Source of the DNA: Cloacibacterium sp. TD35
GTDB taxonomy: Bacteria; Bacteroidota; Bacteroidia; Flavobacteriales; Weeksellaceae
Length of the DNA stretch: 64,000 nt
Assembly (NCBI RefSeq): GCF_028864635.1
Contig: NZ_CP104850.1
Span: 1,804,001-1,868,000 of the forward strand
Direction of reading: 5' to 3'
In this document: positions 44,257 through 48,578 of the stretch, piece by piece
Layout: each line of letters begins with the position of its first letter
How positions within the stretch are numbered: position 1 is the stretch's first letter
The notes under the pieces: generated by a model
What the model was told of the DNA's origin: nothing
The model's input: only the letters and a program-made list of their open reading frames with translations
The model's database searches: none
Position numbers and translations under genes: made by a program

Positions 44257-44586
44257 ATGGGAATTTCTAAAACTGAACATTTCACAGAAGAACAAAATGA
44301 AGTCGCAAAATTGATGAAAGCGCTTTCTCATCCTGCTAGGATTGCGATTGTAGAATATTTACTTTCTGTAGATTCATGTATTTGTAATGATATTGTAGAA
44401 GAGATAAAATTGGCCCAACCTACTGTTTCTCAACATTTGAAGGAATTGAAGAACGTAGGGATTATTCAGGGTGAAATAGACGGGAAAGCCATTTGTTACT
44501 GCATCAATCCAGAAACATTGAAAAAAATGGAACATTTTATTTCTGAAATTTTCCAAAAAATAGAAAAACAAAATAACTGTTGCTAA
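44257..44586 (+). CDS. arsR: ArsR-family metalloregulator
   Basis: 109 residues, winged helix-turn-helix repressor. ALSHPARIAIVEYL, VDSCICNDIVEEI and AQPTVSQHLKELKNVGII with GKAICYCINPE are the family core. The metal-sensing cysteines would be Cys in DSCICND (a C-x-C pair in helix alpha 3), as in As(III) sensors of the ArsR type, plus the C-terminal CC. It heads a five-gene operon for arsenic handling, ends 23 bases before arsM, and probably represses the operon through the palindrome upstream until As(III) binds. Confidence 0.9.
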   Translation: MGISKTEHFTEEQNEVAKLMKALSHPARIAIVEYLLSVDSCICNDIVEEIKLAQPTVSQHLKELKNVGIIQGEIDGKAICYCINPETLKKMEHFISEIFQKIEKQNNCC

Positions 44587-44609: not shown

Positions 44610-45449
44610 ATGAATTCTAACGAAGAAATCAAAGAAATGGTAAAGCAAAAATATGCAGAAATCGCTTTACAAAACCAGGATACTAACGCTTCATCTTGCT
44701 GTGGTAGTGGCGGTTGTAGTACAGAAGTGTACAATATTATGACTGATGATTATGACCATTTGGAAGGATATAATCCAGATGCAGACCTTAAATTAGGTTG
44801 CGGTTTGCCTACAGAATTTGCCAAAATTAAAAAAGGAGATTATGTAGTAGATTTAGGAAGTGGAGCGGGGAATGACTGTTTCGTAGCTCGTGCAGAAACT
44901 GGCGAATCTGGAAAAGTGGTTGGGATAGATTTCACTCCTGAAATGATAGAAAAAGCCAGAAATAATGCAGATAAATTAGGTTTCAATAATGTAGAATTCC
45001 GTTTGGGAGATATCGAGAACATCCCTTTAATGAGCAATGTTGCTGATGTTGTGGTAAGCAACTGCGTAATGAATTTGGTGCCTAACAAACCAAAAGCTTT
45101 TGCAGAAGTTCAACGAATTCTGAAACCAACTGGTCATTTTTCTATTTCAGATATTGTTTTGGTGGGAGATTTGCCAGAGAAAATTAAAAATGCTGCAGAA
45201 ATGTACGCTGGATGTGTAGCTTCGGCCATTCAAATGGAAGATTATTTGAAAATCATCGAAAATTCTGGTTTCAAAAACATTACTTTACAGAAGAAAAAAC
45301 CGATTATCGTTCCCGATGATATTCTAAAAAATTACCTGAACGAAGAAGAAATTCAGCAGTATAAAGATTCTACAACTAGAATTTACAGTATCACTGTTTA
45401 CGCAGAGAAAGTAGTTGGTTGTTGTACTCCAAATACTGGGTGTTGTTAA
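44610..45449 (+). CDS. arsM: Arsenite S-adenosylmethionine methyltransferase
   Basis: 279 residues from ATG 44610; a TTG at 44580 in the end of arsR is rejected. SAM-binding VVDLGSGAGNDCFVA and GIDFTPEMIEKA; three cysteines typical of ArsM are found in KLGCGLP, VSNCVMNLV and YAGCVAS. The N-terminal stretch has CCGSGGCS at residues 30-37, and the C-terminus ends CCTPNTGCC, giving extra thiols that could hold As(III) before methylation. ArsM adds methyl groups to arsenite, producing volatile or more easily exported species. Second gene of the ars operon. Confidence 0.92.
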   Translation: MNSNEEIKEMVKQKYAEIALQNQDTNASSCCGSGGCSTEVYNIMTDDYDHLEGYNPDADLKLGCGLPTEFAKIKKGDYVVDLGSGAGNDCFVARAETGESGKVVGIDFTPEMIEKARNNADKLGFNNVEFRLGDIENIPLMSNVADVVVSNCVMNLVPNKPKAFAEVQRILKPTGHFSISDIVLVGDLPEKIKNAAEMYAGCVASAIQMEDYLKIIENSGFKNITLQKKKPIIVPDDILKNYLNEEEIQQYKDSTTRIYSITVYAEKVVGCCTPNTGCC

Positions 45450-45461
45450 AAAATTGAAAAC

Positions 45462-46082
45462 ATGGAGTTTGACAAAAAACAACATTGGGAAAATGTTTTC
45501 GCCACAAAAAAAGAAACGGAAGTAAGTTGGTATCAAAAAAAACCTGAAACCTCTCTACAGTTTTTTGAAAGAAATGAAATTCCAAAAAACGCCAAAATTT
45601 TAGAAATTGGCGGCGGAGATAGTTATTTGATTGACAATCTTTTAGAGCAAGGTTATGAAAGTATTACTTTACTTGATATTTCAGAAAATGCGATAGAAAG
45701 AATCAAGAAAAGACTAGGCGAGAAAGCAGAAAAAGTACATTTTGTAGTGTCTGATATTTTAGATTTTTCTCCTTCAGAAAAATTTGATGTGATAAATGAT
45801 AGAGCGAGTTTTCATTTTTTGACCAAAGAAGAAGATATTCAAAAATATGCTACTTTGATGAGCGAAATTTTAGGAGAAAACGGACTGTATTTTGTGGGAA
45901 CCTTTTCAGAATCAGGACCTCTGAAATGTAGTGGTTTAGAAATTACGCAATACAGCAAAGAGAAGTTCTTGAAAATTTTCGGAACTCATTTTTCGCAGCT
46001 CCATAGTTTTGAAGAAGTACATAAAACACCTTTTGAAACTACTCAAAACTTTATTTTCTGCGAATTCCAAAAGAAAATGTAA
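45462..46082 (+). CDS. Class I SAM-dependent methyltransferase in the ars operon
   Basis: 206 residues. Rossmann-fold methyltransferase: motif I ILEIGGGDSYLIDNLL, LLDISENAIERIKKRLG, and the acidic DILDFSPSEKFDVINDRASFHFLTKEED. The opening HWENVFATKKETEVSWYQKKPETSL matches a widespread family of small methyltransferases with unknown substrate. It lies 12 bases after arsM. I do not know its substrate; arsenic or another metalloid or a thiol is possible from context. Shorter than ArsM and without its cysteine set, so not a second ArsM. Confidence 0.78.
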   Translation: MEFDKKQHWENVFATKKETEVSWYQKKPETSLQFFERNEIPKNAKILEIGGGDSYLIDNLLEQGYESITLLDISENAIERIKKRLGEKAEKVHFVVSDILDFSPSEKFDVINDRASFHFLTKEEDIQKYATLMSEILGENGLYFVGTFSESGPLKCSGLEITQYSKEKFLKIFGTHFSQLHSFEEVHKTPFETTQNFIFCEFQKKM

Positions 46083-46091
46083 TTTTATGTG

Positions 46092-46880
46092 ATGAAAAAG
46101 TCCAAATTCAAAATCCATAAAATGGATTGCCCTTCAGAAGAGCAAATCATCAGAATGAAGCTTCAGAATTTTACATCGATTGAAGCCTTGGATTTTGATA
46201 TTCCCAATCGAGAATTATTGGTTTTTCATCATGAAAATGAAGAAGAAATTTTCAAACAATTAGAAACGCTAAATTTTGATACACAGCATATTTCTACAGA
46301 ATTTACCCAAGAAAAACTCCAAGAACACAAAAATCAAACACAATTGCTTTGGAGTGTTTTAGGAATCAATTTTTTCTTTTTTTTGTTAGAAATTTTCTAT
46401 GGTTTTTGGTCTAATTCTATGGGATTAGTTGCCGATAGTCTAGATATGTTGGCAGATAGTTTTGTGTATTTATTGGCTTTATTTGCAGTAGGAAAAGCCA
46501 TTGAAAGAAAGAAAAATGTTGCCAAAATCAGCGGATATTTTCAGTTGATTTTGGCAATTTTAGGTTTAACAGAAGTTTTGCGAAGGTTTTTTGTGAAAAC
46601 AGAAGTTCCAGAATTTCAAATGATGATGCTTATTTCGTTTTTTGCATTATTAGGAAACGCAGCTTGTCTTTATCTTTTGCAAAAAAGTAAAAGCAAAGAA
46701 GCTCATATTCAGGCGAGTGTAATCTTTACCAATAATGATGTGATGATCAACCTGGGTGTGATAATTGCTGGGATTTTAGTCTATTTTACACATAGCAAAA
46801 TGCCAGATTTAGCCATTGGAACTCTTATTTTTATCTTGGTGACGAGAGGTGCTTTTTCGATTTTAAAACTATCAAAATAA
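46092..46880 (+). CDS. HMA-like/CDF-like hybrid cation transporter
   Basis: 262 residues from ATG 46092 (GTG 46089 is the alternative). Residues 1-75 form a ferredoxin-like heavy-metal-associated domain with MDCPSEEQIIRMKL in place of the usual GMxCxxC, so one cysteine. Residues 90-260 carry about five transmembrane helices of the cation diffusion facilitator type. Helix 2 holds DMLAD (D-x3-D, like HxxxD of CDF site A), but helix 5 reads FTNND where CDFs have HVLGD, so the metal-binding His is Phe. It lacks the C-terminal cytoplasmic domain of CDFs. It is inside the ars operon between a methyltransferase and arsC; substrate unknown. Confidence 0.7.
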   Translation: MKKSKFKIHKMDCPSEEQIIRMKLQNFTSIEALDFDIPNRELLVFHHENEEEIFKQLETLNFDTQHISTEFTQEKLQEHKNQTQLLWSVLGINFFFFLLEIFYGFWSNSMGLVADSLDMLADSFVYLLALFAVGKAIERKKNVAKISGYFQLILAILGLTEVLRRFFVKTEVPEFQMMMLISFFALLGNAACLYLLQKSKSKEAHIQASVIFTNNDVMINLGVIIAGILVYFTHSKMPDLAIGTLIFILVTRGAFSILKLSK

Positions 46881-46884
46881 TCAA

Positions 46885-47499
46885 ATGAACTTAAAAATTA
46901 GAGAAATAATTGCTCAACTTTCCACGGAAAGAATTTCTGAGGAACGAAAAATAATACTTCAACCTTTAATTCAATTTATATCTTCTAAATTATCTAAAAA
47001 TGAAGAAGTTAGATTAAATTTTATTTGTACTCATAATTCCAGAAGGAGTCATCTTTCACAGATTTGGGCGCAAACGATGGCTTATTATTATCAAATTGAA
47101 AATGTTTTTTGTTATTCTGGTGGAACAGAAGCGACAGCAATGTTTCCGAAAGTAGCAGAAACGCTTGCAAATCAAGGTTTTGAAATTTTAAAATTATCAG
47201 AAACTGAGAATCCTGTTTATGCTGTAAAATTTGCCGAAAATGAACATGCTGTGATTTGTTTTTCTAAAAAATATGATGATAATTTCAACCCAAAATCAGA
47301 ATTTGCTGCTATTCTCACGTGTGATTCTGCAGACGAAAATTGCCCGATTGTTTACGGTGCAGAAGCCAGAATTCCCATAAAATATGAAGATCCAAAAAAA
47401 TCTGACGGAATAGCTGAAATGAATGAAACGTATTTCAATAGAAGTTTAGAAATCGCTACAGAAATGAAATTTATTTTTGAAAATATAAGAAAATCATAA
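46885..47499 (+). CDS. arsC: Arsenate reductase, low-molecular-weight phosphatase type
   Basis: 204 residues. P-loop Cys48-x5-Arg54 ([11 protein letters not shown]), the LMW phosphatase/thioredoxin-coupled ArsC signature, and a later CDSADENCP that can supply the resolving cysteine. An approximately 40-residue N-terminal helical extension precedes the catalytic domain. It reduces As(V) to As(III), which Acr3 then exports. Starts four bases after the HMA-CDF gene; part of the operon. Confidence 0.85.
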
Positions 47500-47519: not shown

Positions 47520-48551
47520 ATGAAACCCAAACTAAAATTTCTTGACAGATATTTAACATTATGGATTTTTTCAGCAATGATTTTTGGAGTTTTGCTAGGG
47601 AAATTTGTGCCAGCGATTCCAGAAACCATCAATCAGTTTTCTAGTGGGACGACTAATATTCCATTGGCGATTGGTTTGATTCTCATGATGTTTCCGCCTT
47701 TAGCTAAAGTAGATTATAGTCTTTTGCCTATGGCTTTTAAAGACCGTAAAACGATGGGAGTTTCTTTGCTTCTGAATTGGATTATTGGTCCGATTTTGAT
47801 GTTCGTTTTGGCGATTATTTTTCTGAAAGACGAACCCAATTATATGGTTGGGCTGATTTTGATAGGTTTGGCAAGATGTATCGCGATGGTTATCGTGTGG
47901 AATGATTTGGCTTCTGGAAATCGTGAATATGCCGCAATGTTGGTGGCACTTAACAGTATTTTTCAAGTGTTTACGTACAGTTTTTACGCTTGGTTGTTTA
48001 TTAATTTTTTACCACAATATTTAGGTTTTGGAAATTTTGAAATCTCAGTTCCCATGAAAGATGTAGCGATAAGTGTTGCCATTTATTTGGGAATTCCTTT
48101 TGTTGCAGGTTTTTTGACAAGATATTTCTTAATTCAACAAAAAGGAAAAGAGTGGTACAATAGAGTTTTCGTTCCGAAAATTTCGCCCATTACGTTATAT
48201 GCTTTGCTGTTTACAATAGTGGTAATGTTCAGTTTAAAAGGCGATAAAATTGTAGAATTGCCTTTTGATGTGCTTAAAATAGCAGTTACATTGGTGATTT
48301 ATTTTGTTTTGATGTTTTTCACCAGTTTCTTTATCAATTATAAATTAGGAATTGATTATGATAAAAACGCTTCGGTTTCTTTCACCGCCACTGGAAATAA
48401 TTTTGAACTCGCGATTGCTGTTGCCATTGCTGTTTTTGGGATTCATTCTAAAGAGGCTTTTGCAGGAGTAATTGGACCACTCATAGAAGTTCCTGTGCTT
48501 ATTTTACTGGTAAAAGCAAGTCTTTGGTTAAAGAAAAAATGGTATAAATAA
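47520..48551 (+). CDS. acr3: Arsenite efflux transporter Acr3
   Basis: 343 residues with about ten hydrophobic helices. Acr3-type signatures: [39 protein letters not shown], and the key [17 protein letters not shown] with the conserved Cys and the acidic residue required for As(III) transport, then [21 protein letters not shown]. It extrudes As(OH)3 using the proton gradient. Last gene of the ars operon, and a hairpin terminator follows. Confidence 0.94.
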
Positions 48552-48578
48552 AGCGAGAAAAAATCTCGCTTTTTATTT
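48549..48578. terminator. Intrinsic terminator of the ars operon
   Basis: Eight-base arms AAGCGAGA (48551-48558) and TCTCGCTT (48564-48571) with an A5 loop, then T residues; A-rich left flank serves the convergent sirtuin gene. Confidence 0.8.

Follow-up and report, generated by a model that had tools for sequence, protein, structure and literature searches.

What does a CDF protein with an HMA-like domain do inside an arsenic resistance operon? The question is raised by one gene in the window, a 64,000-nucleotide stretch of the genome of Cloacibacterium sp. TD35, which is a single contig of 2.6 Mb. As the original prediction had it, this gene stands in an ars operon: arsR, arsM, a second methyltransferase gene (MT2), the CDF gene, an arsC-like gene and acr3 follow one another on the forward strand (Table 1). 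Against the arsenate reductase model the arsC-like protein scores 34 bits (cut-off 174.3). The CDF reading frame starts at the ATG at 46092, with the GTG at 46089 as a possible alternative, and ends at 46880. Both terminator-like sites (3 in the region, where shuffles predict 2.6) and promoter-like sites (22 against 18.8 expected) are near chance in number.

Table 1. The ars operon of the window and the parts of its CDF gene.
Feature	Position	Strand	Basis or remark
arsR-type regulator, first operon gene	44257..44586	+	
arsM, arsenite methyltransferase	44610..45449	+	355.2 bits, cut-off 263
MT2, second SAM methyltransferase	45462..46082	+	ends 9 bases before the CDF start
HMA-CDF protein, 262 aa, without C-terminal domain	46092..46880	+	ORF, Pfam, AlphaFold model
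N-terminal HMA-fold domain, residues 1-72, MDCPSEE, PbrA-type	46092..46307	+	predicted fold, 2kkh match, PbrA comparison
Six-helix CDF membrane domain, residues 73-262	46308..46877	+	Pfam, predicted fold
Helix-2 DMLAD (D118, D122; residues 118-122)	46443..46457	+	invariant in 144/144
Helix-5 FTNND (F212, D216; residues 212-216)	46725..46739	+	F in 142/144, D216 in 144/144
arsC-like protein	46885..47499	+	starts 4 bases past the CDF stop; weak thioredoxin-type arsenate reductase match
acr3, arsenite efflux	47520..48551	+	447.3 bits, cut-off 282.8
Terminator-like hairpin, operon end	48550..48572	+	consensus match only

An HMA domain joined to a CDF membrane domain

The protein had been described as an HMA-CDF hybrid that ends without the C-terminal domain, and the reading frame, the family matches and a structural model all agree with this. 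The match to Pfam Cation_efflux, PF01545 (68.4 bits), is above its cut-off of 26.6, and the scores for TIGR01297, a CDF model (76.6 bits, cut-off 82.35), and for Pfam HMA, PF00403 (14 bits, cut-off 24.8), are below theirs. PF00403 scores 21.6 bits in the relative encoded by ISPpu12 and 45.4 bits in a two-domain Acinetobacter relative. An AlphaFold2 model was built from 55 sequences (best model mean pLDDT 86.8, pTM 0.71; the five models ranged from 72.5 to 86.8) and compared with known structures by Foldseek and VIA-align. Residues 1-72 of the model form a complete HMA fold (best row Z 13.3, rmsd 1.1, 71 residues) and residues 73-262 the CDF membrane fold (Z 21.4, rmsd 2.2, 186 residues against ZnT8). 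The best structural rows for the membrane domain are zinc transporters; SLC30A10, Mn-bound in the entries listed, is also among the matches. The last helix of the model ends at residue 260 of 262, so that the C-terminal metal-binding domain, which is typical of CDFs if not universal, is absent. MDCPSEE occupies residues 11-17, where the HMA domain has CxxE and no CxxC of the copper type. There are two cysteines in the protein, C13 and C192, and C13 alone is invariant among relatives. A protein of Cloacibacterium normanense is 99% identical over the full length.

A transport site shared across a subfamily

The metal selectivity of CDFs is usually explained by a set of His and Asp residues in helices 2 and 5. 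The original prediction saw the helix-5 His replaced by Phe and the helix-2 residues kept. The first part stands, since F212 aligns in HMMER with the helix-5 His of the ZnT8 HxxxD motif; as to the second, D118 and D122 align with the helix-2 His/Asp pair of ZnT8. Judged by alignment, two His and not one are changed relative to the ordinary CDFs compared, that of helix 2 to Asp and that of helix 5 to Phe. These 12 ordinary CDFs all have a C-terminal domain; one is encoded on a plasmid, and eleven come from loci that the first genome search had turned up. In 12 of 12 cases 118 and 212 are both His, with HxxxD in both helices, and the sequence runs on for 95-109 residues past the aligned end, where the window protein has 0; pWW0 MrdH, an extra control, fails to align at the site and stands outside the 12. 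Site A of CDFs typically, though not strictly by definition, reads (H/D)xxxD in helix 2 and HxxxD or DxxxD in helix 5; the window protein fits in helix 2 and departs from the pattern in helix 5 with FxxxD. The canonical CDF ZnT8 has, by alignment, a helix-5 His, and also a C-terminal domain, and the window protein has neither. It shares with ZnT8 and YiiP/FieF the membrane fold and the helix-5 Asp, and differs from both in having an HMA domain. YiiP combines DxxxD in helix 2, as found here, with a helix-5 His and a C-terminal domain.

Relatives were collected as 161 ORFs from loci of genome contigs, from genomes, from plasmids and from the window, of which 144 are distinct. M11, D12, C13, N93, E100, D118, D122, Q151, H205, D216 and N220 are invariant in all 144, E16 is kept in 143 and E17 in 142, and position 212 is Phe in 142 and Cys in the other two. 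Because Phe is so nearly fixed, the site was not rebuilt inside the Cloacibacterium operon, as had originally been proposed. The same DxxxD and FxxxD motifs, again without a C-terminal domain, occur in three short HMA-less CDFs from Xanthomonas, Sulfitobacter and Sphingobium plasmids, which run on for 11-12 residues past that end. As far as so small a comparison goes, the altered site accompanies loss of the C-terminal domain and is not bound to the HMA fusion. We refer to CDFs with these three features (no C-terminal domain, DxxxD in helix 2, FxxxD in helix 5) as the DD-FD subfamily, a grouping defined in the present analysis; the window protein, the ISPpu12 protein and the three short CDFs all have them.

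Within the genus, dN/dS of the CDF gene is 0.014-0.184 in 10 of 10 pairs, which indicates purifying selection. Together with site residues that are invariant in 144 of 144 sequences, values so far below 1 argue that the site is under selection. Chance or degeneration as the origin of the motif is ruled out by the 144 relatives and by dN/dS below 0.2.

An HMA domain of the PbrA type

A profile built from 25 HMA domains, one of them a fragment, found as its best solved match 2kkh (E 0.0039), with DCPSE aligned to CCTSE; the next matches are copper chaperones for superoxide dismutase at E 0.25 or more. The search output labels 2kkh a "putative heavy metal transporter", and we take it to be the zinc-binding domain of plant HMA4. 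The N-terminal domain of plant HMA4/HMA2 is described as an HMA fold with CxxE (PMC3411818, where it treats this domain). Fold and CxxE are common to that domain and the one in the window, whereas the plant domain has a CC pair in place of DC and belongs to an ATPase.

When the window HMA domain alone was searched against 72,556 plasmid records, 997 of them matched, and among the matches listed (40 of the 997 records) were 23 heavy metal P-type ATPases, 14 cation transporters or CDFs and 3 unannotated proteins. The pMOL30 ATPase is flanked by lspA on one side and by cadR, then an FTR1 protein, on the other. Since these neighbors fit the pbr locus of pMOL30 as set out in PMC1526738, in its section on that locus, we have taken this ATPase, whose record has no gene name, for PbrA by gene order. 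It carries two MDCPTEE HMA domains, homologous to the single MDCPSEE domain of the window protein (hhalign probability 98.6), and the same two domains are found in two further cadR-ATPase-lspA operons, on Citrobacter and Shewanella plasmids. An HMA fold with MDCP[ST]EE, which marks the PbrA type, is what the window protein has. The proteins otherwise differ: PbrA is an ATP-driven P-type ATPase for Pb(II) efflux in which we found no CDF domain, whereas the window protein is a CDF.

The two protein types also meet in one operon plan. ISPpu12 on pWW0 carries cadR-CDF-lspA, the CDF being an HMA-CDF of the DD-FD subfamily, and this is the cadR-ATPase-lspA plan with a CDF in place of the ATPase. This "CzcD" cation transporter (WP_004364974) resembles the window protein in its MDCPSEE HMA domain, LDxxxD in helix 2, IFSAND in helix 5 and lack of a C-terminal domain, and differs from it in an N-terminal extension and in having cadR and lspA instead of ars genes around it. 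On plasmids more widely, cadR is annotated beside 4 of the 11 members examined, all 4 proteobacterial; it was not seen beside the other 7, among which the Deinococcus member has an ArsR/SmtB regulator. A member on an Acinetobacter plasmid (L109:5005-8874) has feoA and feoB behind it and a divergent cadR in front.

Relatives outside and inside ars operons

The best 80 of at least 541 relatives were surveyed up to 10 kb on each side, many loci being cut by contig ends. Seven of these loci contain acr3, 1 contains arsM and 3 contain MT2, each count including the Cloacibacterium locus. Other nearby clusters, named from scanned clusters only, are TonB receptors (21), RND adaptors (17), P-type ATPases, Fur-type regulators and MerTP (13 each), and an ArsR-like regulator and RND pumps (12 each). 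A small Cys-rich protein, weakly like DUF6660 and below its cut-off, is encoded in 14 of the best 80 loci; it precedes the TonB receptor, and these two with the CDF form a three-gene module of Bacteroidota. Counted over all 144 members, CusB-like adaptors lie within 5 kb of 22, CusA-like pumps of 20, P-ATPases of 21 and MerTP of 13; a TonB receptor gene lies upstream within 1 kb in 24, often a few bases before the CDF gene (L038, L042, L044 and others). A relative of MT2, 45-50% identical, is found near the CDF gene in L068 and L075 too.

An even sample of the phylum gave 61 places; 57 remain once the one in the window and three that are partial (G040, G163, G427) are set aside. Measured start to start, acr3 lies within 10 kb for 3 of the 57, counted over 43 of 46 rows (those of G427 and G040, whose CDF matches were dropped, and the partial one of G133 were left out). 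MerTP does so for 6, counted over all 22 rows, and a TIGR01511 ATPase for at least 11, a lower bound since its rows were counted in part. If about 45 acr3 genes were spread uniformly over 56 genomes, each of about 4 Mb, we estimate that about 0.2 such cases would be expected, against the 3 observed; metal-resistance genes tend to cluster in general. The expectation that homologs keep company with ars genes is therefore mostly contradicted, with relatives largely elsewhere (acr3 at 3 of 57 places and in 7 of the best 80 loci), and what survives of it is that the linkage recurs.

On a tree of the 144 sequences, a quick one in which 58 of 141 inner branches are open, the 9 ars-linked rows (five from Cloacibacterium, L190, L042, L128 and L077) need 5 changes, which may be gains or losses. 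A single ars-linked clade is not supported by these 5 changes. The acr3 neighbors in L152 and L154 were weak paralogs (27-29% identity), dropped before the count. In L128, from a genome of another family, the CDF gene lies between DUF6428 and acr3, inside an ars operon; in L190, L042 and L077 it belongs to a neighboring module on the same strand as the ars genes. The CDF gene is truly inside an ars operon in two groups only, Cloacibacterium and L128. Repeated linkage suggests co-regulation of metal and metalloid resistance. The Cloacibacterium copies form one group (SH-aLRT 100). Its stem measures 0.607 changes per site, where the median end branch has 0.048, although long stems can also mean missing sampling.

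A probable guest in the Cloacibacterium operon

Five of seven Cloacibacterium genomes, the window's included, have the CDF gene within the ars operon. The operon of G001 reads arsR-arsM-MT2-arsC-acr3 without it, the MT2 stop lying one base before the arsC start, and no acr3 was found in G004 at E 0.001; the pattern may reflect gain in five or loss in G001. Over the 10 pairs of the five genomes, synonymous divergence of the CDF gene (0.026-0.110, by our own Nei-Gojobori script) is lower than that of every other operon gene: 0.178-0.419 for arsM, 0.129-0.303 for MT2, 0.160-0.389 for arsC, 0.192-0.363 for acr3 (cut short in G003) and 0.379-1.022 for arsR. Compared with the window in sliding steps, the other four are likewise 96.5-98.5% identical across the CDF gene and 81.5-97.0% in the flanking steps, the broken acr3 end of G003 being left out. 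Since its synonymous divergence is low next to that of its neighbors, exchange of the CDF gene within the genus is probably of later date than any exchange of theirs, and the gene has the look of a recent guest in this operon. In G003 a DDE transposase ORF breaks acr3 and the CDF gene of the same ars operon is kept (L173:4949-6262). G002 has a second, different ars group, of arsR, DUF6428, a phosphoesterase-like gene and acr3, without a CDF gene (L191:7527-11703).

Which metal, and in which direction

We favor, with modest confidence, a model in which the window protein is an exporter of the Zn/Cd/Pb class under arsenic control; the original prediction was right to name a companion metal as one option. 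Export of such a metal is the best reading on three grounds: the CDF fold, the type of HMA domain, and the cadR found next to 4 of 11 plasmid members. We envision a scenario in which the PbrA-type HMA domain (Cys13 with Asp12 and Glu16/Glu17) would collect or sense the metal and pass it to a three-carboxylate transport site (D118, D122, D216), from which the CDF, lacking a C-terminal domain, would export a divalent metal of this class from the cytoplasm by proton antiport. As a guest in the ars operon, the CDF should be made when arsenite releases ArsR, and would then confer co-resistance to metals that accompany arsenic. What the sequences show is the layout of domains, the invariant residues, the kinship within the family, the place in the operon, a congeneric operon without the gene and its low synonymous divergence; the direction of export, proton antiport, substrate class and metal hand-over are steps that we infer, as is induction by arsenite, for which the evidence is operon position. 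A narrower version, which we think unlikely, holds that a CDF exporter combining this three-carboxylate site with a PbrA-type HMA domain moves Pb(II) (or Cd/Pb) and that its gene was captured several times by ars operons, arsenite thereby inducing efflux of a metal found with arsenic in the environment. We know of no proven CDF with Pb(II) as its cargo. Among the titles listed by searches of open-licence literature, none dealt with an HMA-CDF inside an ars operon or with the CPSEE/CPTEE motif.

Described systems bear on this model in different ways. CdfX of Cupriavidus metallidurans (Rmet_2299) is similar by description, being a CDF of six helices without a C-terminal domain encoded near cad genes; its account reports a zinc exporter near cadA for which no role in cadmium resistance could be demonstrated, gives it a much smaller cytoplasmic domain and, in the passages on CdfX, mentions no HMA domain (PMC11580412). 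The CH34 genome paper, in its treatment of this cluster, puts it under Pb (PMC2864759). For the CZC module of ISPpu12a, the one subfamily element for which we found a substrate test, none of the strains tested gained resistance to Cd, Co or Zn, and a lower MIC was seen in a few instances with it or another CZC module; that it corresponds to the ISPpu12 protein of pWW0 we take from the name of the element only; as far as the test descriptions in PMC4447125 go, Pb is not among the ten ions listed. For CDFs on pWW0, cadmium was predicted from their CadR neighbors in the relevant section of PMC1526738, whose authors say that they found no primary experimental evidence.

The surroundings in Bacteroidota do not single out the Zn/Cd/Pb class, since relatives there adjoin genes for RND systems, copper-type P-ATPases, MerTP and TonB receptors, and both site His are missing, unlike in the zinc CDFs compared. 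The same absence of both site-A His would fit an all-carboxylate site shifted away from Zn and export of another divalent metal (Mn, Fe, Co, Ni, Cu or Hg), as would the CusB-like, CusA-like, P-ATPase and MerTP genes within 5 kb of members, feoA/feoB beside the Acinetobacter member and Mn-bound SLC30A10 among the structural matches. We consider this rather unlikely: a PbrA-type HMA domain with CxxE instead of CxxC speaks against Cu(I), and cadR stands beside several proteobacterial members. It is less probable still that the protein does not export at all and is a metal importer, a sensor, a chaperone-like membrane receptor or an inactive CDF. A Phe at one transport-site position and the ISPpu12a module without Cd, Co or Zn resistance (PMC4447125, as above) point that way, and a TonB receptor so often directly upstream in Bacteroidota could fit uptake. 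However, no TonB receptor adjoins the CDF gene in the window, and invariance of D118, D122, D216, N93, E100, H205 and N220 in all relatives, with dN/dS well below 1, indicates that the site is under selection.

Transport of an arsenic species, be it As(III), MAs(III) or a thiol conjugate, has in its favor the place of the CDF gene between arsM/MT2 and arsC/acr3, the five linkage changes on the tree and the position between DUF6428 and acr3 in L128. Trivalent arsenic is bound by three-thiolate sites, however, and two cysteines, with C13 the sole invariant one, are too few for such a site; with so few conserved thiols we regard arsenic transport as very improbable. Relatives lie mostly away from ars genes, and the congeneric G001 operon does without the CDF gene. 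No homology to the arsenic carriers Acr3, ArsB, ArsP or ArsJ was found in Pfam and NCBIfam at an E-value limit of 1, where Pfam returned Cation_efflux and HMA alone and NCBIfam CDF-type models alone. The arsenic option of the original prediction is thus disfavored by the cysteine count and by the PbrA-type HMA domain. As a leading reading it was set aside on these two grounds and on the placement of relatives.

Occurrence in the phylum and on plasmids

The subfamily was found in 57 of 395 sampled genomes of the phylum at E 1e-40, and on plasmids 691 records match the HMA-CDF protein, 393 of them across 80% of its length or more; HMA-less CDFs or ATPases account for some of these records. It is thus common, and it has been little studied; the DD-FD site together with a PbrA-type HMA domain makes it a clean test of metal choice by CDFs. 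Four proteobacterial members (L109, L111, L114 and L115) carry two HMA domains, with DCPSEE or DCSAEE, and those from Acinetobacter and Vibrio have a Cys-rich N-terminus in addition; the ISPpu12 and A. johnsonii members have one HMA domain.
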